NCBI RefSeq assembly: GCF_003545715.1
Contig: NZ_QVNU01000007.1
Span: 186,001-250,000, forward strand
Source of the DNA: Taibaiella koreensis
GTDB taxonomy: Bacteria > Bacteroidota > Bacteroidia > Chitinophagales > Chitinophagaceae
Direction: 5' to 3'
DNA: 64,000 bases
In this document: piece after piece, positions 36,736 through 49,279 of the stretch
Layout: every line of letters begins with the position of its first letter
Position numbering within the stretch: the first letter of the stretch is position 1
The notes under the pieces: model-generated
Databases searched by the model: none
What the model saw: only the letters and a program-made list of their open reading frames with translations
Told to the model about the DNA's origin: nothing
Translations under genes and position numbers: made by a program

Positions 36736-36841
36736 ATGAATGTCTATTTATTCCGGTTAACCGTCAGGTAACCTTATGGTAAGAAGGGGGTTACAATGAC
36801 GTAACAATAGCCTTTGAAATTTGCGCGCACAAATTGAACCA

Positions 36842-39800
36842 ATGAAATATATTATTACATCACTCTTTTTGCTGGGGGTGCTGGGCTATGCCGGCACGGC
36901 CCGCGCGCAAACTATTACCCTGAACAGATCCGTCGCTACGGGATCGGATGACGCCGAAGAATGCGTACCGGGCGGTACCGGCGGCACAGTGGGCGCTGTT
37001 GATCTGGCCAGCACCGACCTGGAGATCATGTTGGACGGCCCTAAAAAACAAATGATCGGCCTGCGTTTTACCAATATCACGATCCCGCCCGGATCGGTGA
37101 TACAGAACGCTTACATCCAGTTCTCGACCAAAGGCGATAAGAACCCGGTATTGGGCAATGCTTATCTTTCCATACAGGATGCCGATAATCCGGCCACCTT
37201 TGGCGGCAATTTTAATATTACATCACGTGCCCGTATCGCCGATTCGGTGCTGTGGCCCGGCAGCACCAGCAGCACCTGGGGAACCAGTAGTGCCGGCGTG
37301 GCCGGTCCCGATCAGAAGACACCCGAGCTGAAAACACTGGTGCAGGCAGTGATCAACCGTTCCGGCTGGGTAAGCGGCAATGCGCTGGTCTTTTTCATTA
37401 CGGGTCCCGATGGCGTACGTAATGCCAATTCATACGATAATCCTCCTCTAGGTTCCGGCGCGGCCAAGCTTGTGATCCAGTATACTTCTTCGGTGGTACC
37501 ACAAATACCCGTAACCGCCTTCCCGATCGCTAAGCTAAGCCAATGGAAGTACCTGGACAATGGCAGCAACCAGGATACAGCCTGGCGAATGCCTTCGTTC
37601 AACGACAGCAGCTGGAGCTTTGGTCCGGGTAAGCTGGGTTACAGCGACAATCCGGCAACGACCTTAAGCTATGGACCCAACTCCGGTAATAAATACATTA
37701 CCTATTATTTCCGTAAGCCTTTTACCGTAAGTAACCTCGCAGGTCTTAGCGATAGCCTGGACCTGAATATTCTGCGCGACGACGGGGCTGTGGTCTTTAT
37801 CAACGGGGTGGAAGTAGTGCGCAGTAATATGGATCCGGGTACGTACGATTACCTGACCCACTCTTCTACCATTGTAGACGGCGCCGATGAATCGACCTAT
37901 TTTCATTATTCGGTACCCAAAAGCGTGTTGGTGAATGGTAACAACCTGATCGCGGTAGAAATACACCAGCGCGATGGTACCAGCTCCGACCTGGGCTTTG
38001 ATATGGAGCTGATCGAGCATGTACCTCCTGCCGGTCCTTCCCTTTTGCGCGGTCCTTATCTGAATGCGGCTACTCCCAACAGCATCGTTATCCGTTGGCG
38101 CACCGATCTCCCGGCAAAGAGCCGTGTACGTTTTGGCGCTACTGCAGCTCAACTGGACCAGGTGGTGCAGGATACCAATGCTGTGACAGAGCACATCATC
38201 AAGCTTACCGGTCTTACACCTTATACCCGGTATTTTTACAGCATCGGTTCCCTGACCGATACCCTGCAGGGTGACGCGGCCAACTACTTCAGTACCTTGC
38301 CTGTGGCTGGTCTTACCGATAGCCTGATCCGTATCGGGGTGATCGGCGACTGCGGCAACAACTCGACCAACCAGCGTAATGTGCGGGACCAGCTGGTGAA
38401 TTACCTTGGTCAAAACTATATGAACGCCTGGATCCTTCTCGGCGATAATGCTTATTCTTCCGGTTTCGACAACGAGTACCAGGCAGAGTTTTTCAATATC
38501 TACAAAGACAGGTTCCTGAAACAAAATCCCCTGTTCCCTGCGCCGGGTAATCATGATTATGGTAACAGCACAAGCTCACCTTCCGTAACCAACCATGCGC
38601 TGGCGCCGTATTACCAGAACTTCACCATGCCGGTAGCTGGCGAAGCGGGAGGCACGCCTTCCAACAATCCTGCTTTTTATTCCTACGACGTAGGCAACAT
38701 GCATTTTCTCTCTCTCGATTCTTATGGCAAGGAGGCTGACGCTTCGCTGATGTACGATACCAACGGTGTGCAGGTGCAATGGATCAAGCAGGACCTCGCC
38801 AACAATACCAACAAAGGTTGGGTAGTCGCTTACTGGCACCACCCGCCCTATACTATGGGCTCGCATAACTCCGACAACGAAGGCGACCTCGTGCAGATCC
38901 GGCAGAAGTTCATCCAGATACTGGAGCGTATGGGCGTAGACCTTATTCTTTGCGGCCACAGTCACGATTACGAGCGGTCCAAGCTGATGAAAGGACACTA
39001 CGGTAACGAAGCCAGCTTCGATGCCAATGTACACCACCTGAGCGCATCCAGCGGTATGTATGATGGTTCGGCCAACTCTTGTCCTTATGTCAAGGATTCT
39101 GCAACCAATTACCAGGGCACGGTTTATGTCGTGTCGGGATCGGCAGGCCAGCTGGGCGGCCAGCAGGGCAGCTTTCCGCACAATGCTATGTATTATTCCA
39201 ATGCCAGTAATGGTGGCTCGATGATCCTTGAGGTAAAAGGCAACCGCCTGGATGCAAAATGGATCTGTGCCGATGGGGTGATCCGTGATCAGTTCACCAT
39301 GATGAAGGATGCCAACCGGAAACGTACATACGAGATCGACGGCGGCAGCCCTGTTACCCTGAAGGCGGCATATAATGGCGTCTATAACTGGCAGGGTGTT
39401 GCGGCCAATACGCAATCGGTTACCGTGAGCCCTACCGATACGACCACTTATGTGGTAACAGATAATTTCAGCTGTATCAGCGATACCTTCGTGGTACAGG
39501 CAAGGGCAGTGCCGCTACCTGTAAGCTGGGGCTATATGCGGGCCAGCGTCAAGGATGCGCACAGCAACCTGGTAGTATGGCAGACACTGAGCGAGCACAA
39601 TACGGCTTACTTTGAAGTGGAGCGCGCTATGGCCGCCGGCGCCTTTACCGCCGTAGGTAAAGTAAAGGCAGCGGGCAACAGCAGTCAGTCTGTAAACTAT
39701 CAGTTGGCGGATGCCACGATCGATCCCACACAATCGCTTTACCTGTACCGGGTACGCCAGGTAGACCTGGATGGGAAAGTGACCTATTCCCAGGTTGTTC

Positions 39801-40069
39801 CGGTCAGTCGTAATGGCAACGAGGCATCGACACTTATCCTGGCGCCCAACCCGGCACACGATGGCGAAATGATCATTGCTTTGACCAAAGGTGGCGAAGT
39901 GGCTGCAGAACTACTGCTTTCCGACGTGGCGGGCCGCAAAGTATGGCGTCACCATATAATGCTCAGCGGCAAGCCGCAACCATTCCTGCCATCGCTTCAG
40001 CAGGGCATTTACTTCCTTACGGTTAAGTACGAGGGCGGGTCCTTTACCCGGAAGATTGTAATCAAATAA
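36842..40069 (+). CDS. purple acid phosphatase-like metallophosphoesterase with T9SS sorting domain
   Basis: 1075 residues from ATG 36842, with signal peptide about 1-24 (ITSLFLLGVLGYAGTARAQ). Order of parts: a DNRLRE-like beta domain (IPPGSVIQNAYIQFSTKGDK), a second beta domain, a fibronectin III-like domain of purple acid phosphatases (SIVIRWRTDLPAKSRVRFGA), and the metallophosphoesterase core with GVIGDCGN, WILLGDNAYSSG, PGNHDYGNS, VAYWHHPPY and LCGHSHDYERS, all metal ligands present. The end is a T9SS type A domain (LAPNPAHDGEMIIALTKGG). It is a secreted phosphatase or phosphodiesterase, probably for phosphate scavenging. It follows the di-haem gene by 106 bp and ends at a strong terminator. 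Confidence 0.93.
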   Translation: MKYIITSLFLLGVLGYAGTARAQTITLNRSVATGSDDAEECVPGGTGGTVGAVDLASTDLEIMLDGPKKQMIGLRFTNITIPPGSVIQNAYIQFSTKGDKNPVLGNAYLSIQDADNPATFGGNFNITSRARIADSVLWPGSTSSTWGTSSAGVAGPDQKTPELKTLVQAVINRSGWVSGNALVFFITGPDGVRNANSYDNPPLGSGAAKLVIQYTSSVVPQIPVTAFPIAKLSQWKYLDNGSNQDTAWRMPSFNDSSWSFGPGKLGYSDNPATTLSYGPNSGNKYITYYFRKPFTVSNLAGLSDSLDLNILRDDGAVVFINGVEVVRSNMDPGTYDYLTHSSTIVDGADESTYFHYSVPKSVLVNGNNLIAVEIHQRDGTSSDLGFDMELIEHVPPAGPSLLRGPYLNAATPNSIVIRWRTDLPAKSRVRFGATAAQLDQVVQDTNAVTEHIIKLTGLTPYTRYFYSIGSLTDTLQGDAANYFSTLPVAGLTDSLIRIGVIGDCGNNSTNQRNVRDQLVNYLGQNYMNAWILLGDNAYSSGFDNEYQAEFFNIYKDRFLKQNPLFPAPGNHDYGNSTSSPSVTNHALAPYYQNFTMPVAGEAGGTPSNNPAFYSYDVGNMHFLSLDSYGKEADASLMYDTNGVQVQWIKQDLANNTNKGWVVAYWHHPPYTMGSHNSDNEGDLVQIRQKFIQILERMGVDLILCGHSHDYERSKLMKGHYGNEASFDANVHHLSASSGMYDGSANSCPYVKDSATNYQGTVYVVSGSAGQLGGQQGSFPHNAMYYSNASNGGSMILEVKGNRLDAKWICADGVIRDQFTMMKDANRKRTYEIDGGSPVTLKAAYNGVYNWQGVAANTQSVTVSPTDTTTYVVTDNFSCISDTFVVQARAVPLPVSWGYMRASVKDAHSNLVVWQTLSEHNTAYFEVERAMAAGAFTAVGKVKAAGNSSQSVNYQLADATIDPTQSLYLYRVRQVDLDGKVTYSQVVPVSRNGNEASTLILAPNPAHDGEMIIALTKGGEVAAELLLSDVAGRKVWRHHIMLSGKPQPFLPSLQQGIYFLTVKYEGGSFTRKIVIK

Positions 40070-40465: not shown

Positions 40466-40852
40466 TTAGTTTTTAAAGGCAAAGAATTTGAGGCCGGTAA
40501 TACCGCCCATGATCATCAAGATAAAAAAGACTTCAGCCAGGCTGGTCTTTTGCTGAAAGAAGATCACTTCCGAAAGCTTGATCAGCACAAGGCTGGCGCC
40601 CGTCCATGCGGCAAACGCTGTTGCCAGCGGGATTTGCCTGGTGGCCATGGAAAAGAAGTACACATTGGCGATACCGAAGCAGATATAGCCTGCAAAAGGC
40701 GCCAATACCTTGAGGCCGCTCTGTGGCACATAAAAGTTGGACCAGGTAAGCTGCCTGAGGTTTTTGAATTGCATCACCTTTAGGGAGTAGGTCCAGAAGG
40801 CTTCCATTAATGCGGCCAGCAATAAATATCCCCAATATATCCAGTTAGTCAA
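40466..40852 (-). CDS. EmrE/SMR-like small membrane transporter
   Basis: 128 residues with four hydrophobic segments: WGYLLLAALMEAFWTYSL, VLAPFAGYICFGIANVYFFS, IPLATAFAAWTGASLVLIKL and LAEVFFILMIMGGITGLKFF. The membrane Glu in the first helix (LMEAFW, residue 17) is in the position of the essential proton-coupling Glu of SMR exporters, and IPLATAFAAWTG matches the family's IPlsiAYAvWsG. Usual SMR length is about 105-110; this one has a longer loop after the first helix. Substrates could be cationic compounds or guanidinium-type metabolites; not deducible. It follows the sugar/desaturase operon past a repeat pair. Confidence 0.82.
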   Translation of the reverse strand: MTNWIYWGYLLLAALMEAFWTYSLKVMQFKNLRQLTWSNFYVPQSGLKVLAPFAGYICFGIANVYFFSMATRQIPLATAFAAWTGASLVLIKLSEVIFFQQKTSLAEVFFILMIMGGITGLKFFAFKN

Positions 40853-40872: not shown

Positions 40873-41016
40873 GTGGCTGAGCTTGTCGAAGCCACATTAT
40901 ATTTTTTTATCCCTTCGACGGAGCTCAGGGACCGCTTACTTCCGGTGGCTGAGCTTGTCGAAGCCAGGTTGTATTTTTTTATCCCTTCGACGGGGCTCAG
41001 GGACCGCTTAGGTCCC
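40873..41016. repeat. two 72-bp repeats, each a REP-like hairpin
   Basis: Copy 1 40873..40944 and copy 2 40945..41016 share most of their sequence. Each contains CTGAGCTTGTCGAAG and, 21 bp on, its near-complement CTTCGACGGAGCTCAG, so each can form a long hairpin with an A/T loop. The stop codon of the desaturase gene (41008) lies inside copy 2. The CTTCGACAAGCTCAG-type core is a common interspersed repeat in Bacteroidota genomes (from memory). Confidence 0.85.
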
Positions 41017-41952
41017 GGTCTGTATCGCCTCCGTTTCTTTTTCTGCTATTATAGCTGCTGGAAGTATACCGGCATCCTGCAAAGGCTTTTTCCTCCTGAC
41101 AAACAAACGTATGAAAGCCGGTCGCAGGTTGTAATACCAGCGGAACCACTTGTGACGCAATAGCTGCTTTTCATCAAAGCGCTTTACGGAAAAGGCATGT
41201 TGCAGAAAGTAGTCCTTTGGATAATCGTAATACAGCCCCCAGTTCTCTGGCTTGTTGCCGGGCTTTGTTCCCGGAAAATAGACGGTGCCGAACAAATAGT
41301 CCCAAAGGGAGAGCTTGGTCGCAAAATTGGCATGGAACACTTCCCTGTAATTGGCATGATGCCAGAGGTGCAGCTCGGGAGAATTGAAAATGTATTTCAG
41401 CTTGCCCATTTTCACTCGGATATTACCGTGGATGAACATGCCGTACATGGAATCGATCAACGCCTTGATGGGGATCACTTCGGGCGATGCACCCAGCAGG
41501 ATGATGGGCCCAAATTCAATTGTCTGGTTAATGATGATCTCCACAATATGTGAGCGGGAGCCGGAAAGAAAATCAACTTCCTTGCCCGAATGATGCGCTT
41601 CATGGGTGCGCCAGAAAAACTTATTGCTGTGCTGAAAGCGATGGAACCAGTATATATAAAAGTCATGCATCACGAAGAACAGCAATACTTGCAGCGCCAC
41701 AGGCCAATTGCTCACGCCCTGGAAGCGCGACCAATCAAAATGATGTTGCAGCGGCGCAATGATATAGTCAAAGATGACGATCTTGAGCACAAAGCTCTGG
41801 ATGATCGTATACCATACCAGGTCTACCCAAAAGCCTTCCCGGAATAAGGGAAGGCCTTTGCGGTAGGGAAACAGCCGTTCCCAGGTTATAATGATAACGG
41901 CCCAGCAGGCTAGTATGATCGAGGTGATCGTGAGTATGCGTTCCTGGCTCAT
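41008..41952 (-). CDS. sterol desaturase / fatty acid hydroxylase family membrane protein
   Basis: 314 residues with about four membrane segments. The eight-histidine di-iron signature is complete: HDFYIYWFHRFQH (HX4-5H), HEAHHSGKEV (HXXHH) and LHLWHHANYREVFH (HX3H region). Enzymes of this group hydroxylate or desaturate fatty acyl chains or sterols at the membrane with O2. The start codon overlaps the stop of the HAD-NeuB fusion gene (ATGA, 4 bp), so it is the last gene of the eight-gene sugar operon. It may hydroxylate the lipid that carries the sugar made by the operon (inference), or be a lipid-tailoring enzyme recruited by chance. Confidence 0.9.
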   Translation of the reverse strand: MSQERILTITSIILACWAVIIITWERLFPYRKGLPLFREGFWVDLVWYTIIQSFVLKIVIFDYIIAPLQHHFDWSRFQGVSNWPVALQVLLFFVMHDFYIYWFHRFQHSNKFFWRTHEAHHSGKEVDFLSGSRSHIVEIIINQTIEFGPIILLGASPEVIPIKALIDSMYGMFIHGNIRVKMGKLKYIFNSPELHLWHHANYREVFHANFATKLSLWDYLFGTVYFPGTKPGNKPENWGLYYDYPKDYFLQHAFSVKRFDEKQLLRHKWFRWYYNLRPAFIRLFVRRKKPLQDAGILPAAIIAEKETEAIQTGT

Positions 41953-43400
41953 GCGATTACGCCATCCTTCTTACTTTCTGTTTGTCCGGGATTAATATTT
42001 ACCCTCAGACGCTTCATAGGGCCCAGTTCCGACTCGTATACTTTTTTGATACCGTCGCCCATGGCCAGCTCTACATCGCGTATATCGCGTACCAGGCGCT
42101 GGAAGCCCTGGGGTTCTACAGAGGCAGCATGGTCTGATCCCCACATGGCACGGTCAAGGGTAAAGTGCCTTTCCACAAAAGTAGCGCCCAGGCTCACGGC
42201 AGTCACCGTGGTAGACAAGCCCGTCTCGTGTCCGGAATAGCCGATAGGTACGCCGGGGAATTTGCGGCTGAGCACAGGGATCATTCTCAGGTTCAGTTCT
42301 TCCAGCTTGCAGGGGTAGGCCGAGGTCGAATGTGCGATAAAGAAGGGATATTCTTCATCGTAGCTTCGGATGAGCGCTACGGCATCTTCTATTTCCTGCA
42401 TGGTGCTCATGCCGGTCGACAACATCAGAGGCTTTCCGGTAAACAGGATACGCTTGATTAGCTCAAAGTCGGTGAGGCTGGCAGAAGCCAATTTGTAGAT
42501 CACCGTGTCGAACTGTTCCATAAAGTCTACGGATGCGGTATCCCAGGGCGATACGAACCAGTCGATACCCTTTTCCTTACAATATTGATCGATCACACTG
42601 TATTCGTCAAAGCCAAATTCTGTCTTACGTTTATAATCGATATAGGTCATGCGGCCCCATGGGGTATCGCGCATCACTTCCCACTGGTCTTTGGGCACGC
42701 AGATCTCAGGTGTTCTTTTCTGGAATTTAACCGCGCAGGCCTTGGCGGCTACCGCTTCGTCAATCAGCTGCTTGGCGATATCAAGCGAACCGTTGTGGTT
42801 GATACCGATCTCGGCAATGATATAGCAAGGCTGGTCTTTATCGATGATACGGCCGTTGGATAGCGTAACGCCGCGGCTTACAGAAAAAGCCTGGCTATTA
42901 TGCGCACGGGCTTCGATAATGATCTCGGCAAATTCGCGGAAGCAACCTTCACCGCCTTTGGCGCGGCAGATGAGGTCTACCTGCTGCTTTACGGCGGGGA
43001 GGGCATCGGCGGGACAAGCACTGAGGCCTACCAGCTGCATAATACCCAGGTCGTTGTGATCGTCGCCAATATAGGCTACGTTTTCGGGTAAAATATGGTA
43101 GCGTTCCAGTATGCTGCTCAGCAAGGCAGCTTTGTCTTTGATGCCGCCATGCAGCTCATTGATACGTAGCTTCTCGGCGCGTTGATGCAGGGACGCTGAG
43201 TTTTCACCGGAAATGATCCCGGTATCGGTGCCCGCAAAGCGACGGAGACGTTCTACGGCCATGCCGTCGCGCAGGTTGAATTTTTTCAGGGTTTCGCCCA
43301 TTTCACCATAATAAACGCTCGCATTGGTCAATACGCCGTCGCAGTCGGTCAGCAGCAGTTGGATGCGGCTGGCTTTTTCTCTAAGCAGGTTCTTGTTCAT
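41949..43400 (-). CDS. fused KdsC-type phosphatase and NeuB-type sialic acid synthase
   Basis: 483 residues, two enzymes in one chain. Residues 1-165 form a HAD phosphatase of the KdsC/YrbI type (LLLTDCDGVLTN with Asp 19 and 21; GIISGENSASLHQRAEKL; YIGDDHNDLGIMQLVG). Residues 185-483 form a NeuB-type synthase: YIIAEIGINHNGS, AVKFQKRTPE, YKLASASLTDFELI, LMLSTGMSTM, FFIAHSTSAYPC, VPIGYSGHETG and ATFVERHFTLD. NeuB condenses phosphoenolpyruvate with an aldose to make a 3-deoxy-ulosonic acid; an attached phosphatase would suit a phosphorylated product, as in the mammalian-type pathway. The usual C-terminal SAF domain is absent: the chain ends soon after MKRLRVNINPG. The fusion is unusual. Confidence 0.9.
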   Translation of the reverse strand: MNKNLLREKASRIQLLLTDCDGVLTNASVYYGEMGETLKKFNLRDGMAVERLRRFAGTDTGIISGENSASLHQRAEKLRINELHGGIKDKAALLSSILERYHILPENVAYIGDDHNDLGIMQLVGLSACPADALPAVKQQVDLICRAKGGEGCFREFAEIIIEARAHNSQAFSVSRGVTLSNGRIIDKDQPCYIIAEIGINHNGSLDIAKQLIDEAVAAKACAVKFQKRTPEICVPKDQWEVMRDTPWGRMTYIDYKRKTEFGFDEYSVIDQYCKEKGIDWFVSPWDTASVDFMEQFDTVIYKLASASLTDFELIKRILFTGKPLMLSTGMSTMQEIEDAVALIRSYDEEYPFFIAHSTSAYPCKLEELNLRMIPVLSRKFPGVPIGYSGHETGLSTTVTAVSLGATFVERHFTLDRAMWGSDHAASVEPQGFQRLVRDIRDVELAMGDGIKKVYESELGPMKRLRVNINPGQTESKKDGVIA

Positions 43401-43419
43401 GTTTTTGTTTTTTTATGGG

Positions 43420-44235
43420 TTAGATAGCTGTCCAGCCGCCATCCACAACGAGATTGGCGCCGGTCATATAGGCCGAGGCATCGCCGGCCAGGAATACCAG
43501 GGCTCCCTGGTAATCGTCCGGTTGCGCCATGCGGCCCAGCAAGGTTTTTGAAGAATAGTTCTGAATGAAAAAATCGTCTTGACCTTGTTCCACACCGCCA
43601 GGAGAAAGGGTATTTACCCTTACACCTTTATGACCCCAATAGGCCGCGAGGAAACGGGTGAAGTTGATCACCGCCCCTTTGGTCACCGGGTAGGCGGCCG
43701 ACTTGTAAAAAGTCTGTACGCCATCCGGGTCGCGGTAGATCGACTGGTCGGGACCTACCATGCCGTAAGTAGAGGCCACATTGATGATGCTGCCTTTCCC
43801 CTGTTCCGCCATCACGGTTCCCAGCACCTGCGCGCAAAGGAACACGCCGGTAATGTTCACATCGATCGAGCGCTGAAAGGCATCGAGCGGATATTGCTCA
43901 AATGCAGAAAGTGTCGCCGCCATCGCCGGATTTTCAAACTTGTCGTTGATCGCAGCATTATTGACCAGGATATCAATACGGCCATAGCGCGCCAGCACCT
44001 GGTCCCGTAGTGCGGTCACCGATGTCTTATTTGTCACATCGACATCTGCCCCCATGTGTGTCGAACCGAGTGTTGCGGCAAAGGATTGCAGCGCCCCATG
44101 ATTGACGTCAGCCGCTACTACCTGCGCGCCGGCTTCCGCCAGGGCTTCGCAGTGCCTGCGGCCCAGGAGGCCTAGCGCTCCGGTCACAACAGCCGTTTTG
44201 TCTTTTAGCGAGAAGCGTTCCATATTATCCGGCAA
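43420..44235 (-). CDS. SDR family oxidoreductase
   Basis: 271 residues. The NAD(P) motif [20 protein letters not shown] (TGxxGxxG) is followed by VAADV, an acidic end of beta-2 favouring NAD. The NNAAI motif and the catalytic set Ser in [11 protein letters not shown], Tyr and Lys in [14 protein letters not shown] are all present, and [11 protein letters not shown] follows. It probably oxidises or reduces a sugar hydroxyl or keto group in the pathway encoded by the operon. It starts 11 bp inside the end of the aminotransferase gene and ends 19 bp before the fused synthase gene, so the three are tightly coupled. Substrate unknown. Confidence 0.92.
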
Positions 44236-45574
44236 CAGGTGTGGTTTTGGGTTTAATGTTATAGTTGTTCACCTTGCGGAAGACGGCTTCCAGCACCTCG
44301 CCTTTGAGGTATTGCTGTACATTACCGTTTTCAATTGCCGTTTTGATCAGAGGCAATACATCGGCATAGGCCGAAAGCGTGTATTCAATATCTTCTGGTG
44401 TATGGCTGAAGCACATGTTGTGAAAGCCGGCCCACAGGATACCCCGTTTGATCATTTCCTGCTGCATCAGGGTTTTTAGCTCAAGTCCGTTACCGGCAAC
44501 AGGGGAGAAGGTGATCATGCTGCGGCAATTGTAGCCGATGCAATGCGTATAAGCTTCCATGCCCAGCTCCCGCACCAGGTTATTGTAGCCATCTTTTAGC
44601 AGGGCGCCTTTTTCATCAAGGTATTGTGGTACCTGTTTATCGCGCAACTCTTCGATAGTAGCGATACAAGCCGCGAGCGACAGGGCTTCGCCGCCAAAGG
44701 TGGTATAGCTGAATACTTCGCTGTTGAACAGTTCCATCACATCGGAGCGGCCCGTGAGGAGCGCTATGGGCATGCCATTGGCGCATGCTTTGGAGTAAAC
44801 GGCCAGGTCGGGCGTTACGCCAAAGTATTCCTGTGCGCCGCCGAGGGCAATGCGGAACCCGGTCCACATCTCATCAAAAATAAGGAGGGTACCGTTGGCG
44901 CGGCAGAGCGACAACAGCTCCTGCAGGTAACCTTCTTTCGGTGCTTCAAAAATAAAAGGCTCCAGGATAACGGCGGCGACATCGCTGTCCAGCGCTGCCT
45001 TTATCGATTCGATATCATTGTATTCAAACGTAAAGGTCATGTCCTGGGTCGACGCAGGGATGCCGGCGTTGCGGCTGGTAATGCCGATGTACCAGTCGTG
45101 CCAGCCGTGATAACCACAGCAGAATACTTTGTCGCGGCCGGTAAAGGCGCGGGCCACCCTTATCGCTGCAGAGCAGGCGTCGGCGCCTGTTTTGGTGATC
45201 TTCACCGCTTCGGCATTGGGGATCACTTTCTGTAATAGCTCTGACAGCTCCACTTCGAGGGGATGCATCAGCGAGAAGGTAATACCATCTTCCAATTGAC
45301 GCCGGATCGCTTCGTCCACTTTGGGATAGGCATACCCCAGGGATACGGGACCTATAGCACTATTGTAATCGATGTATTCGTTACCATCGACATCCCAAAC
45401 GCGGGCGCCTTTGCCACGCTGGATGTATTTGGGTGCAACGCCCTTGCTGAACTGCCCGGGGCCTTTAGCCAGTGTTTGCGTTACCGGTTTTTGTACGCTC
45501 AGGGCTCTTTGGTAGTAGGCGTCGGAGATGCTGATCTCAGGGTATTGTTCGTTAAAAGAAACCGTATTCGGCAT
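44225..45574 (-). CDS. class III aminotransferase (glutamate-1-semialdehyde aminomutase-like)
   Basis: 449 residues from ATG 45574 ([20 protein letters not shown]). The HemL/GSA-AM type is clear: [40 protein letters not shown] (cofactor phosphate), [26 protein letters not shown] with the PLP-contacting Asp, and the Schiff-base Lys in [14 protein letters not shown] near residue 261. The real hemL of tetrapyrrole synthesis usually sits among haem genes; here it sits in a sugar operon, so it probably aminates a keto- or aldo-sugar intermediate. A longer frame to 45604 overlaps the transketolase stop and is not preferred. The 3' end overlaps the SDR gene by 11 bp. Confidence 0.92.
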
Positions 45575-45593
45575 AAGAGATATGATTAAAGAA

Positions 45594-46532
45594 TTACTCG
45601 GCAAATTCGGATGGGGTCATCTGCACGGCTTGCTGACCGGTGGGATAGCCCAGTATCTCCTCGGCGATCTGCTTACCGGTGAAGCCTTCATACTGCAGCA
45701 CATCGGGCAGCAGTGCCGGTTTGAACCAGCGTTCCTTGAGCGCAAAGGGGATCACATTGGCGGTAATGCGATGCTTCAGCAAGGTCTCGGCGAGAATGCT
45801 GTACAGGCCCCCGGTGAGAAAATGATCTTCTACTGTGATCAGCAGTTTGCTATGCTGTGCCGCTTCTATGAGGGCTTTTTCGTCGACAGGCTTGAGCGAT
45901 CGCATATTGATGAGGCCTACAGATTTTCCTTCGGCCTGTAGTATGGTGGCGGCCTGCAGGCACTGGTCAAACAGCAATCCATAGCACAGCAGGGTAATGT
46001 CTTCCCCCTGGCTTACGATCTCCGCTTTGCCTGGCTCGTAGGGCGCATGATGGTAATGGGTGGGGCGTGTATTGATGCGTACATAGGACGGAGCAGATGA
46101 TGACCATATTGCAGGCAGCATCAGCAGCAGGTCTTCTTCGTCGGCAGGAGCAAATACCTCCATATTGGGGATCCCGCGCATCAGGGCAATGTCTTCGATG
46201 GCCTGGTGGGTCGGGCCATTGGCATCGGAAAGGAATCCGGGAATAAAGCCGCTCAGCTTTACGGGCAGGCCGGGGATGCCGACATCGGTACGTACAAATT
46301 CGAAGGCCCGCATGGTAAGGAAAGCGGTAAGCGCATGCACTACAGGTGTGCGGCCACGCAAGGCCAGACCCGCCGCAGCGCCGATCATGGTCTGTTCTGT
46401 AATACCGGTATCAATGAACCGCTGGCCGAGCGCAGCAGGTATATTGCGTACCAGGGCGCGGTTCTCGGCGGTCATTACGATATAGCGCTCATCTTCCAGC
46501 GCGGTTTGGGTCAGCAGTTGTTCGTAGTTCAT
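45594..46532 (-). CDS. transketolase C-terminal subunit
   Basis: 312 residues: the pyrimidine-binding and C-terminal domains of a transketolase split in two. The TPP-activating Glu is in RFIDTGITEQTMIGAAAGLA; LRGRTPVVHALTAFLTMRAF, ANGPTHQAIEDIALMRGIPN and FAPADEEDLLLMLPAIWSSS are typical, and the C-terminal domain has LLCYGLLFDQCLQAATILQA. It pairs with the N-terminal subunit encoded 1 bp upstream. Split transketolases of this sort act in amino-sugar and aminohydroxybenzoate-type pathways or replace the one-chain enzyme. Here it would remodel a sugar phosphate backbone, moving a two-carbon unit (inference). Confidence 0.93.
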   Translation of the reverse strand: MNYEQLLTQTALEDERYIVMTAENRALVRNIPAALGQRFIDTGITEQTMIGAAAGLALRGRTPVVHALTAFLTMRAFEFVRTDVGIPGLPVKLSGFIPGFLSDANGPTHQAIEDIALMRGIPNMEVFAPADEEDLLLMLPAIWSSSAPSYVRINTRPTHYHHAPYEPGKAEIVSQGEDITLLCYGLLFDQCLQAATILQAEGKSVGLINMRSLKPVDEKALIEAAQHSKLLITVEDHFLTGGLYSILAETLLKHRITANVIPFALKERWFKPALLPDVLQYEGFTGKQIAEEILGYPTGQQAVQMTPSEFAE

Positions 46533-46533
46533 T

Positions 46534-47388
46534 TTAACGTACGACTAAGGTTTGTGAGGTTAATTGGGCATGATGTTCGCCGTGCAGCTCCTGCAGCAGC
46601 TGTTCCGTTTCTTCGGTAGTAAAATTGCAGAACCAGCGGTCGGCGCGGCTTTCAATGCTGGGCAGGCCTTTGCCTCTGAGCGTGTCGGCGATCAGCACAT
46701 TCAATTTGCCTTCGCAGAAGGGGTACTGGCTCAATGCCTCATCCAATGCGCTGAAGCTATGACCATCGATACGCTTCACCTCTGCTCCGAAGGCGCGGAA
46801 CTTATCGGCGAGGGGCTCGAGGGGTATCAGGTCTTCTGTAGCCATATTGGCCTGGAACTGATTGCGGTCAACGATAAAGATCAGGTTGTCGAGCCGGTAA
46901 GCATTAGCCACCAATACGGCTTCCCAGCAGGTACCTTCGTTGAGCTCACCGTCGCCGAGAATGCAGACCACTTTATTGTTCCCGCCCCTTACCTTGATAT
47001 CAATGGCAACACCCAGTGCCACGGAAGGTAAATGACCCAACGAACCGGAATGAAATTCTATGCCGGCCACTTTGGTATTGGGATGCCAGTAGATATGGTC
47101 GTCTATAGACAAATGGTTTTGCAGACGTTCGCGGCTGATGATACCGAGCTCTGCCAATGTACCATACAGAGCCGGAACGTCGTGACCTTTGGACAGGAAC
47201 AAATAGTCCCTGTTGGGATCGTCAAGATTATTAATGTTGAGGTTCAGGAAGTCGGCGTAAAGAAATACGATAAGGTCTGTAGCCGACAGGGAGGCGCCGA
47301 TAAAGCAGCCGCCATTGGCCGACATGCGAATGATATGCTCCCGCACCTTAAAGGCAATGTCTTTTAAATGTTGGTATTGGCTTTCCAT
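46534..47388 (-). CDS. transketolase N-terminal subunit
   Basis: 284 residues: the diphosphate-binding domain. The TPP signature GDGELNEGTCWEAVLVANAY and LDNLIFIVDRNQFQANMAT (residues 143-175), plus FLSKGHDVPALYGTLAELGI and GSLGHLPSVALGVAIDIKVR, mark it as transketolase rather than DXS. It ends 1 bp before its partner gene 45594..46532 and lies 24 bp after the cytidylyltransferase gene. Only with the C-terminal subunit is the active site complete. Its placement inside an eight-gene sugar operon suggests a dedicated role, separate from central pentose-phosphate metabolism. Confidence 0.93.
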   Translation of the reverse strand: MESQYQHLKDIAFKVREHIIRMSANGGCFIGASLSATDLIVFLYADFLNLNINNLDDPNRDYLFLSKGHDVPALYGTLAELGIISRERLQNHLSIDDHIYWHPNTKVAGIEFHSGSLGHLPSVALGVAIDIKVRGGNNKVVCILGDGELNEGTCWEAVLVANAYRLDNLIFIVDRNQFQANMATEDLIPLEPLADKFRAFGAEVKRIDGHSFSALDEALSQYPFCEGKLNVLIADTLRGKGLPSIESRADRWFCNFTTEETEQLLQELHGEHHAQLTSQTLVVR

Positions 47389-47412
47389 ATGATTTTCAGG
47401 TTTGGATAGGAA

Positions 47413-48219
47413 TTACAACAGCACTTTGGTTTGCTCCGCGGAAATGGTTTTCAGATCGTCCAGATGATTGCGGTACCAGTTCACACCGGCGTAACCGGCA
47501 TTGATCTCATATATTCTGGGGCGGTCTTCCAGCAGCTGGAGAATATCGTTGCAGCTGAAAGACGGTCTTAGCGGGTAAAGCTTTTTGTACACCTGCACGA
47601 TAAAGTCATAATCTTCGGGGTAGTCGATCGTGAAGCGATGGGTCATCGACAGGTCCAGGCCGGTGCCCCATTCCAGGTTGCCGATACGGAAATGCTCCGG
47701 ATGCTCCCATATATAAGGCGTGGTATGTTCCAGCTCCCAGGAGTGTGCCGCTTCTTTGTACGCCCTTTCAAGACAATCCATGGTCATTACTTCCACATCG
47801 TTGCCGTCAGGCCAGGTAGCCGGATGCAGGTTGCTCACATAGTCGTACCGGCGGGGAATTTCATAGAACAGGTCCAGCGTAGCATCGATAGCCGCCGGAT
47901 CGATAAGCGGGCAATCTGATGGTATCTTCAGCACCACATGAGCGCCATGGTGCCGGGCCGCCAGGTAGTGCCTTTCAAGCAGGTTATCGAGGCTTCCGCG
48001 GTAGCAGGGAATGCCATGTGCATAGGCCTCGTTCTCGATCACATCATCTGAAGGGTCGACAGAGGTAGCGACTACGATGGTTACCGGATATTGCGTCCGC
48101 TGTACCCGCTCTATCATACGTATCAGCAGGCTTTTGCCCCATACGGGAAGCATTACCTTGCCGGGTAGCCGACTGGAAGACATACGGGCCTGTATCACGA
48201 TCACGATCTTATCCTGCAT
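47413..48219 (-). CDS. SpsF-type cytidylyltransferase
   Basis: 268 residues starting MQDKIVIVIQARMSSSRLPG, where the family motif QARMSSSRLPGK begins; a longer frame to 48363 overlaps the upstream gene and is rejected. Further motifs: VATSVDPSDDVIENEA, CYRGSLDNLLERHYLAARHH and VVLKIPSDCPLIDPAAI. SpsF and the related CMP-sialic acid synthetases transfer CMP to the anomeric hydroxyl of ulosonic acids. In this operon it would activate the product of the NeuB fusion. Its start overlaps the end of the glycosyltransferase-like gene by 11 bp. The C-terminal 90 residues (LSMTHRFTIDYPEDYDFIVQ) are usual for SpsF. Nucleotide and sugar specificity are inferred. Confidence 0.92.
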   Translation of the reverse strand: MQDKIVIVIQARMSSSRLPGKVMLPVWGKSLLIRMIERVQRTQYPVTIVVATSVDPSDDVIENEAYAHGIPCYRGSLDNLLERHYLAARHHGAHVVLKIPSDCPLIDPAAIDATLDLFYEIPRRYDYVSNLHPATWPDGNDVEVMTMDCLERAYKEAAHSWELEHTTPYIWEHPEHFRIGNLEWGTGLDLSMTHRFTIDYPEDYDFIVQVYKKLYPLRPSFSCNDILQLLEDRPRIYEINAGYAGVNWYRNHLDDLKTISAEQTKVLL

Positions 48220-49279
48220 ACGATTGTTCCTTTTCGTTAATGAAATAAAGAAGGGCGGCGTCCTGTTGCTCTTTGTACTGGTGAAGAAAATCCTGCACCG
48301 GTCCGTCAAAGTCGATAAAACTGCGGCAAAGTGTGGCGATCTGCTCAGCGGAGGTGCCGCCATTTTGCAATGGTGACAAACGTTTCAGCTGTCGTACATC
48401 AAAGTAAGAATGCACTTTTTTGCCCAGGGCAATACCCGTATATACCACCGTGGAATATTGTGTGATGAGCTCGCTGCAATTGGCAATCATGTGTTGCGTG
48501 TTGCCTTCGGTAAAGATGGCTGTATCCTCTGGTGTATGCTGTCGTATTTCCCCTATAGCACGGTCAAAGTTCTCATTGGGGTGCAGCTTAAATAACAAGG
48601 GTCTTCCGGCTGCAATCGCCACGCACTTTTTGATAAAGCGGACACGGTTCTCAGGCCTGGCCGTTTCGCGCATGTCGGTGGTCGCTACCATGACGTAGTC
48701 ATGGTAGGGAAAATCGTTGTCCAGGAATTGCGCTGCATGATCATAGTTGGGCGTGCCGGTTACCCATATCTTTCCGGGATCGGTACCCATGCCGGATATG
48801 TAGTCGCGATAACCATCCGAAGCGGCGCAATAGAGATCGCATTGGTTGGTAGAGCCATTCAGCGACGTATTGAAACACCAGGTAGGCGGTAGTCTCAGCG
48901 CTTTGATTATCCTGCTCAACAGGGTCATTTTGTCGATCATGCCCTCCTGTATCCACACGGTCCTGGTTTGCTTCAGCGGCGCCGGCACAATAAGGTCGCT
49001 GCAACATACGATAAGGTCGTAACGATGCCGGCTCCCGCCATAATCGATAGCGCAATCACGTTCCTTCAGGTAAGCTTCCGCCTTTTTGCGGTGTGGTTCG
49101 GAGATGATCGTTTTATCAAGCAGGCGTGTTTTGTTCTTCAGGAAATTGACCAGCGGATGATCGGTGAACAGTTGGCTGAACCAACAGTCGAACTCGCCGA
49201 GTGCGCTGGCAACCTGGTACATCTGGGATGTCTGGTTCAACGATCCGGTAAGAAATAGTATTTTTTTGCTCATTCCCAT
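48209..49279 (-). CDS. GT-B fold glycosyltransferase-like protein
   Basis: 356 residues, starting MGMSKK or MSKKILFLTGSLNQTSQMYQ. The overall layout is GT-B: an N-terminal Rossmann half with a DLIVCCSDLIVPAPLKQTRT segment and a C-terminal half starting IWVTGTPNYDHAAQFL, with YVMVATTDMRE, PLLFKLHPNENFD and HMIANCSELITQYSTVVYTG. The KLHPNE and S-T-V segments recall CDP-glycerol glycerophosphotransferases, sialyltransferase-like and KDO-transferase-like enzymes, or UDP-GlcNAc 2-epimerase relatives. It is first gene of the operon, so it is most likely the transferase that attaches the activated sugar, though an epimerase role cannot be excluded. Confidence 0.7.
   Translation of the reverse strand: MGMSKKILFLTGSLNQTSQMYQVASALGEFDCWFSQLFTDHPLVNFLKNKTRLLDKTIISEPHRKKAEAYLKERDCAIDYGGSRHRYDLIVCCSDLIVPAPLKQTRTVWIQEGMIDKMTLLSRIIKALRLPPTWCFNTSLNGSTNQCDLYCAASDGYRDYISGMGTDPGKIWVTGTPNYDHAAQFLDNDFPYHDYVMVATTDMRETARPENRVRFIKKCVAIAAGRPLLFKLHPNENFDRAIGEIRQHTPEDTAIFTEGNTQHMIANCSELITQYSTVVYTGIALGKKVHSYFDVRQLKRLSPLQNGGTSAEQIATLCRSFIDFDGPVQDFLHQYKEQQDAALLYFINEKEQSYAG

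Follow-up and report, generated by a model that had tools for sequence, protein, structure and literature searches.

An operon conserved across Bacteroidota that may make an aminated ulosonic acid and place it on a membrane lipid

What sugar is made, and where is it placed, by an operon that combines a NeuB-type synthase and an SpsF-type cytidylyltransferase with a split transketolase? The question is raised by a stretch of 64,000 nucleotides from Taibaiella koreensis (assembly GCF_003545715.1, contig NZ_QVNU01000007.1, positions 186,001 to 250,000; hereafter the window), in which nine genes run on the minus strand from 49279 to 40466 by open reading frame (ORF) reading. It is probable, at roughly 0.58, that the enzymes of this operon synthesise an aminated 3-deoxy-2-ulosonic acid and link it to a lipid of the membrane. 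A preliminary description of the locus had proposed an amino-ulosonate derived from phosphoenolpyruvate (PEP), activated with cytidine monophosphate (CMP) and built from sugar phosphates, and this proposal is upheld in outline by the evidence below.

The first gene, GTB (48209..49279), encodes a GT-B fold protein, a proposed CMP-ulosonate:lipid glycosyltransferase, and overlaps by 11 bp the SpsF-type cytidylyltransferase (47413..48219, ATG at 48219; PF02348, CTP_transf_3, 78 bits); the alignment of the Methylomagnum orthologue begins at residue 49 of the longer SpsF ORF. After 24 bp follows the thiamine-diphosphate half of the transketolase, TKN (46534..47388; PF00456, Transketolase_N, 76 bits), and 1 bp further its pyrimidine-binding and C-terminal half, TKC (45594..46532; PF02779, Transket_pyr, and PF02780, Transketolase_C). 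A gap of 19 bp separates TKC from AT3 (44225..45574, ATG at 45574), a HemL-like class III pyridoxal phosphate (PLP) aminotransferase (PF00202, Aminotran_3, 171 bits) whose nearest NCBIfam model, NF004856 of the HemL type, scores under its cut-off. Residue K262 of AT3, presumably the PLP lysine, is invariant among the 18 orthologues aligned. The next gene encodes a gluconate 5-dehydrogenase-like SDR dehydrogenase (43420..44235; PF13561, 167 bits; best NCBIfam model NF006070, under cut-off) that overlaps AT3 by 11 bp or, from an alternative ATG at 44223, lies 1 bp beyond it. A further 19 bp leads to the HAD-NeuB fusion (41949..43400), in which a KdsC-type HAD phosphatase at about 42876-43400 (TIGR01670 above cut-off) precedes NeuB (258 bits). 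The fusion overlaps by 4 bp FAH (41008..41952; PF04116, 98.6 bits), a member of the fatty-acid-hydroxylase family whose nearest model is OlsE, the cut-off of which is not reached (NF052566, 116.6 bits vs 475). The last gene, 155 bp beyond FAH, encodes a small SMR-family transporter (40466..40852; PF00893, 54 bits), a possible lipid flippase. For the seven ORFs from GTB to the fusion, strand, coordinates and spacings had been given correctly, and the families named for them match Pfam and NCBIfam; the GT-B assignment comes from an AlphaFold model, no Pfam or NCBIfam model scoring above cut-off.

The order GTB-SpsF-TKN-TKC-AT3-SDR-HAD-NeuB-FAH-SMR is repeated across Bacteroidota, and its retention over such distances is not due to chance. 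Counts cover only loci whose flanks are long enough: 38 of 42 in a phylum-wide set and 65 of 81 in a named set, which joins the plasmid locus L184 to 80 loci from a scan. Four loci are common to both sets. In the named set GTB, SpsF, TKN, TKC, AT3 and SDR are each found in 65/65 loci, HAD in 60, NeuB in 61, FAH in 63 and SMR in 62; in the phylum-wide set of 38, GTB and SpsF are each found in 34, TKN in 28, TKC in 29, SDR and NeuB each in 33, HAD in 25, FAH in 30 and SMR in 8. FAH and SMR are members of the conserved unit; the seven-gene operon of the preliminary description, all seven genes of which are present, was thus incomplete. The named-genome scan for AT3 relatives, of which the best 80 of 532 were kept, returned mostly Mucilaginibacter, together with Taibaiella, Spirosoma, Fibrisoma, Flectobacillus, Arcicella, Pseudarcicella, Hymenobacter and Chitinophaga, and the closest named relatives among the matches listed are Taibaiella genomes. 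Of 395 genomes sampled from the phylum, 53 have an AT3 orthologue of at least 50% identity, with four candidates scored per genome. In the family to which the window genome belongs, an E limit of 1e-60 leaves 11 of 195 genomes with an AT3 match: the window genome itself, six with identities of 68-91%, and a different group of four with 35-38%. Outside the phylum, a plasmid of the gammaproteobacterial Methylomagnum (L184) carries GTB, SpsF, TKN, TKC, AT3, SDR, NeuB and HAD at 47-66% identity, with the order of NeuB and HAD swapped relative to the Bacteroidota operon. The seven families of the preliminary description, checked as a neighbourhood across genomes, recur in conserved order across Bacteroidota and, apart from that swap, on this plasmid.

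The steps catalysed may be pictured as follows. The transketolase would yield an ordinary aldose phosphate, which a NeuB lacking the SAF domain would condense with PEP, and HAD would then take off the phosphate. SDR would oxidise a hydroxyl and AT3 would aminate the oxidised position, after which SpsF would form the CMP-sugar and GTB would transfer it onto a lipid, in most cases probably ceramide. FAH would hydroxylate the lipid, and its flipping would fall to SMR or, in relatives, to LPG_synthase_TM or LplT. The carbon number of the sugar and the position of its amine are likewise inferred.

NeuB departs from the synthases of ordinary nonulosonate clusters. The window protein scores 254 bits against a curated NeuB cut-off of 399.65 and 217 bits against 340.25 for PseI, a Pfam search finds no SAF domain in the HAD-NeuB protein, and the NeuB clade of the operon is without the C-terminal SAF-type extension. 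Among 54 separate ORFs of this clade two are truncated, two have 339 and 343 aa with uncertain starts and the rest have 290-321 aa, and 54 fused HAD-NeuB ORFs have 473-495 aa except two at 563 with a longer predicted start (both counts take in loci occurring in both sets); canonical-like NeuBs in the same collection have 347-350 aa in four of five cases and 333 aa in one. Typical lengths are thus about 296 aa for the clade and about 348 aa for canonical NeuB. A NeuB-type protein of 290 aa, which we take to come from Leptospira, already has a solved structure (6ncs). H206 and H227, presumably metal-ligand positions, are nearly invariant in the clade. The preliminary description had also noted that the usual genes of the routes from UDP-GlcNAc are not seen, and this absence is borne out: no UDP-sugar epimerase, dehydratase or DegT aminotransferase is found among the nine genes by Pfam and NCBIfam, and no relative of the genome's own NeuC, LegB or LegC was found in 123 operon loci (42 + 81; tblastn at 1e-10, half of the query covered). 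Legionaminic and pseudaminic acid clusters share with the operon a NeuB, a cytidylyltransferase and an aminotransferase but differ in their LegB, LegC and NeuC-type genes and full-length NeuB. An ordinary nonulosonate cluster is ruled out by the NeuB and PseI cut-offs, the absent SAF-type extension and the missing UDP-sugar genes. The window genome does hold a legionaminate-type cluster on another contig (G000:C16; L024:4665-12516), with NeuC, NeuB, LegC and LegB above cut-off and a canonical NeuB at 495.6 bits, so the operon is not its sole nonulosonate-type locus.

Sugar phosphates enter the argument through the phosphatase and the transketolase. HAD does not reach the cut-off for KDN-9-P phosphatase (NF058599, 136.7 bits vs 180). 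Among the 38 phylum-wide loci, 25 have HAD without a metallophosphoesterase, none has both, six have the metallophosphoesterase without HAD and seven have neither; the metallophosphoesterase directly follows FAH in 6 of the 13 HAD-less loci. As those six loci belong to related families, the swap is suggestive, and it fits a phosphorylated ulosonate that needs dephosphorylation. TKN is missing in 10 of the 38 loci. Seven of these (L058, L059, L062, L067, L068, L078 and L081) keep the remaining core with TKN absent within the 20-kb locus, as does an eighth locus, L060, whose flank is too short for counting; in L084 one transketolase ORF of full length takes its place, and HAD and FAH are absent, and the remaining two, L071 and L075, are scattered or cut loci. 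PF02779, a domain common to other thiamine enzymes, occurs at ten further places in the window genome. Because the split transketolase is absent or replaced in some loci, a housekeeping transketolase can presumably substitute for it; the aldose phosphate is probably an ordinary one and amination probably does not act on the transketolase substrate. The transketolase, together with the HemL-like aminotransferase, had been taken to point to a sugar-phosphate backbone, an origin that stands in outline, but the enzyme is less diagnostic than supposed, given the eight core-keeping loci without TKN and the one with a full-length enzyme.

Two known pathways offer partial parallels. The KDN pathway of Bacteroides consists of a KDN-9-P synthase, a phosphatase and a CMP-KDN synthetase. 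Like the window operon it uses a NeuB-type synthase on a sugar phosphate, a KdsC-type HAD and a cytidylyltransferase, without UDP-sugar genes; the operon adds a transketolase, an aminotransferase, an SDR, a lipid hydroxylase and a transporter, and its cytidylyltransferase is of the SpsF type. Kdo8N, a component of Shewanella lipopolysaccharide (LPS), is made by KdnA and KdnB (structures 5k8b and 5k8c), an aminotransferase and a dehydrogenase that turn a 3-deoxy-ulosonate into an amino-ulosonate, which is then CMP-activated. In the window operon, by contrast, NeuB and HAD supply the ulosonate, lipid-type genes stand at the end, and the class III AT3 and an SDR take the place of a DegT-type KdnA and an Fe-dependent KdnB.

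The Kdo8N pathway is nevertheless met again through GTB. In family f18, part of the class to which genome G199 belongs, GTB is present in 83 of 86 genomes (93 of 98 for the class). FmoA, which a test of 33 operon genomes detected in 5, is among the genes of G199, which identifies the class as green sulfur bacteria, and f18 would then be Chlorobiaceae-like. Within a 306-genome sample of the phylum 112 genomes have GTB; 66 of them belong to f18, none with an AT3 orthologue, and 44 of the remaining 46 have one, the exceptions being G424 and G457. In all five f18 loci opened, the genes stand in the order LPG_synthase_TM/HpnL-like, GTB, cytidylyltransferase, FeADH and aminotransferase, families having been tested for members in L204, L206 and L207 and assigned elsewhere from protein length and the first residues. 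Among solved structures KdnA (5k8b) is closest to the L204 aminotransferase, at 260 bits, with 169 for the next, and the FeADH is only distantly KdnB-like; a KdnA-like protein goes with the GTB family in these genomes. With one GTB family attached to two different cassettes, a single transferase appears to be supplied by two distinct routes to an aminated, CMP-linked ulosonate. Two copies of GTB were also seen, in tandem in L169 (4939-7404) and on separate contigs in G289 (C29, C41).

Could GTB instead be a divergent UDP-GlcNAc 2-epimerase of the NeuC type, in a KDN- or sialic-type nonulosonate route to which the transketolase is incidental? Fold searches with the AlphaFold model (pLDDT 91) gave the GT-B fold without separating glycosyltransferases from epimerases. 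QEG at 111-113 and HP at 233-234 are invariant over 44 orthologues and a QYST region is conserved; compared with the sialyltransferase motifs of GT38/52/80, HP fits (KLHPNE), and of D/E-D/E-G, seen here as QEG, only E-G fits. The sole significant solved-sequence relative of the GTB profile is the TagF-like polymerase Cps3D (E 2e-5); the Epimerase_2 score stays under cut-off (18.8 bits vs 30.6). An hhalign comparison of the GTB profile with the genome's own NeuC gave no match and so does not show a loss of the epimerase catalytic residues. Since GTB also has a cytidylyltransferase but no NeuB beside it in the 5/5 Chlorobiaceae-like loci, and the NeuB of the operon lies far from the NeuB and PseI models and has no SAF-type extension, the epimerase reading is very improbable. 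That the ulosonate ends up in an envelope glycan, substituting for or decorating Kdo in the lipid A core or elsewhere, as Kdo8N does in Shewanella LPS, has somewhat more in its favour, as LPS or capsule is the usual destination of CMP-ulosonates and the Chlorobiaceae-like cassette contains a KdnA-like gene. Yet the operon is self-contained, the ORFs around it differ between loci, and the genes linked to it are flippase-like and acyl-lipid genes; such a destination is judged unlikely. The end genes (hydroxylase and SMR) and the neighbours in relatives (LplT, LPG_synthase_TM/HpnL-like, OlsF or OlsB/OlsA) point to a membrane glycolipid more than to a generic surface glycan.

If the destination is a lipid, the acceptor has to be considered. 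The same amino-ulosonate might be placed by GTB on an ornithine-type aminolipid made by OlsF or OlsB, with FAH as its hydroxylase, FAH being nearest to OlsE. In L057 and L062 the operon is directly followed by OlsF, above cut-off (718 vs 620); OlsB/OlsA-type genes adjoin it in L063 and L065 and lie on the Methylomagnum plasmid (under cut-offs where tested), where the eight core genes are followed by the lipid transporter LplT (4-bp overlap; 552 bits vs cut-off 297) and then OlsB- and OlsA-like genes, FAH and SMR being absent. By coordinates, G223, G242, G305 and G528 also have a gene with PF13444, the OlsB/OlsF/GlsB domain, 3.7-5.4 kb downstream of AT3 on the same strand. Against this, a search of the window genome gave no PF13444 hit, by which OlsF or OlsB is rejected as a required partner, and any match to it occurs in 18 of 53 AT3-clade genomes (three of the 18 weak, 8 operon-linked) vs 152 of 342 others. 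An ornithine-type acceptor is therefore given a rather small chance.

For ceramide, the acceptor favoured here, the window genome has a serine palmitoyltransferase (Spt) above cut-off (730.7 bits vs 640). It counts against ceramide that only 2 of 53 operon genomes pass this curated cut-off and 0 of 58 that of a second model, and as a universal acceptor it is not supported by the curated models. This is softened by Spt homologues at 1e-100 in 50 of 58 genomes, of which those in 10 of 10 sampled operon or Chlorobiaceae-like genomes are 43-47% identical to the window Spt vs 32-38% to the window Kbl; their best model is NF047600, at 457-493 bits and below cut-off. Most of these ten genes adjoin an epimerase-type gene and several a GNAT gene (domains tested for three), a setting similar, by gene type alone, to that of bCerS and CerR, described as partners in bacterial ceramide synthesis (PMC11087976). 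From sequence, ceramide is a plausible acceptor in most carriers. LPG_synthase_TM, the candidate flippase of relatives, lies within 5 of the 38 phylum-wide loci.

Do known lipids fit such a product? We know of no genes for the lipids of Jensen 1991 and Batrakov 1999. The head group of the former, from Chlorobium, reportedly resembles neuraminic acid, and Arcicella (as Arcocella) is said to be a second source of the latter. An aminoglycosphingolipid of Chlorobium limicola is credited to Jensen 1991 (PMC11762602), and Flectobacillus major is described, with Batrakov 1999, 2000, as containing large amounts of a unique glycosphingolipid type (PMC5155239), although a review table enters it under amino sphingophospholipids instead (PMC10626005). 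The likeness is by taxon alone: at family level for the Chlorobium lipid (GTB in Chlorobiaceae-like genomes) and at genus level for that of Gram-negative aquatic bacteria (Batrakov 1999), as F. longus and Flectobacillus sp. carry the whole operon and Arcicella carries it too, the F. major genome not being among the operon's Flectobacillus loci. As a source of the Chlorobium lipid the operon itself is rejected, as no AT3 orthologue was found in the Chlorobiaceae-like family, where GTB stands in a different cassette.

A tentative extension, less likely than not to hold, is that GTB with its two sugar cassettes (TK/AT3/SDR/NeuB/HAD on the methanotroph plasmid and in the majority of the remaining Bacteroidota carriers, KdnA-type in Chlorobiaceae-like genomes) represents the missing genes for bacterial amino-ulosonyl glycosphingolipids. 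These would be ganglioside-like, acidic or zwitterionic, with the amino-ulosonate directly on the sphingolipid. The orphan lipids of Flectobacillus/Arcicella and Chlorobium would belong to this class, and the window sugar would be an amino-ulosonate not described before, perhaps of seven or eight carbons. If the glycolipid reading is right, genes would be named for a widespread, genetically orphan class of membrane glycolipids, unusual sugar-lipids described decades ago could be explained, and amino-ulosonates would gain a route that starts from pentose-phosphate sugars. GTB would also be a marker predicting lipid producers, among them green sulfur bacteria and the kin of a trout symbiont whose sphingolipids reportedly alter host B-cell proportions (PMC5155239). 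The operon is described in none of the titles and abstracts listed by the literature searches, the coverage of which was incomplete and does not show that it is unpublished, and nothing relevant was found in the passages searched of PMC10191378, PMC11334938, PMC11765627, PMC6148460 and PMC3438082.

Some loci depart from the common arrangement. In family f29, L070, L071, L074 and L075 have AT3 without GTB and NeuB, GTB lying elsewhere in the genome; in these genomes, which may be Thermochlorobacter-like, the pathway genes are dispersed with no single operon (L209-L211 with L070, L071 and L074), and GTB still adjoins LPG_synthase_TM in 3 of 3 loci opened. L056 has GTB through AT3 with NeuB not nearby, and in four Mucilaginibacter loci (L124, L127, L130 and L135) HAD-NeuB is gone from between SDR and FAH. 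A plasmid search with AT3 gave 38 records, and the four opened comprise one true operon (Methylomagnum), one Shinella record, in which no annotated NeuB was seen beside the AT3-like gene, and two haloarchaeal records (L185, L186). In the latter an AT3-like gene (~44% identity) stands beside a DegT aminotransferase and near a protein with a ceramidase N-terminal domain, no annotated NeuB was seen, and the pathway is apparently a different one. L020 and L023 pair an AT3 homologue of ~35% identity with SpsF and full-length NeuB in a cluster of UDP-sugar type by appearance, which looks like a separate nonulosonate variant. In the window itself, what looks by eye like a large secreted protein, with metallophosphatase-like sequence and a tail like those of the type IX secretion system, lies beside the operon end at 36821-40069.

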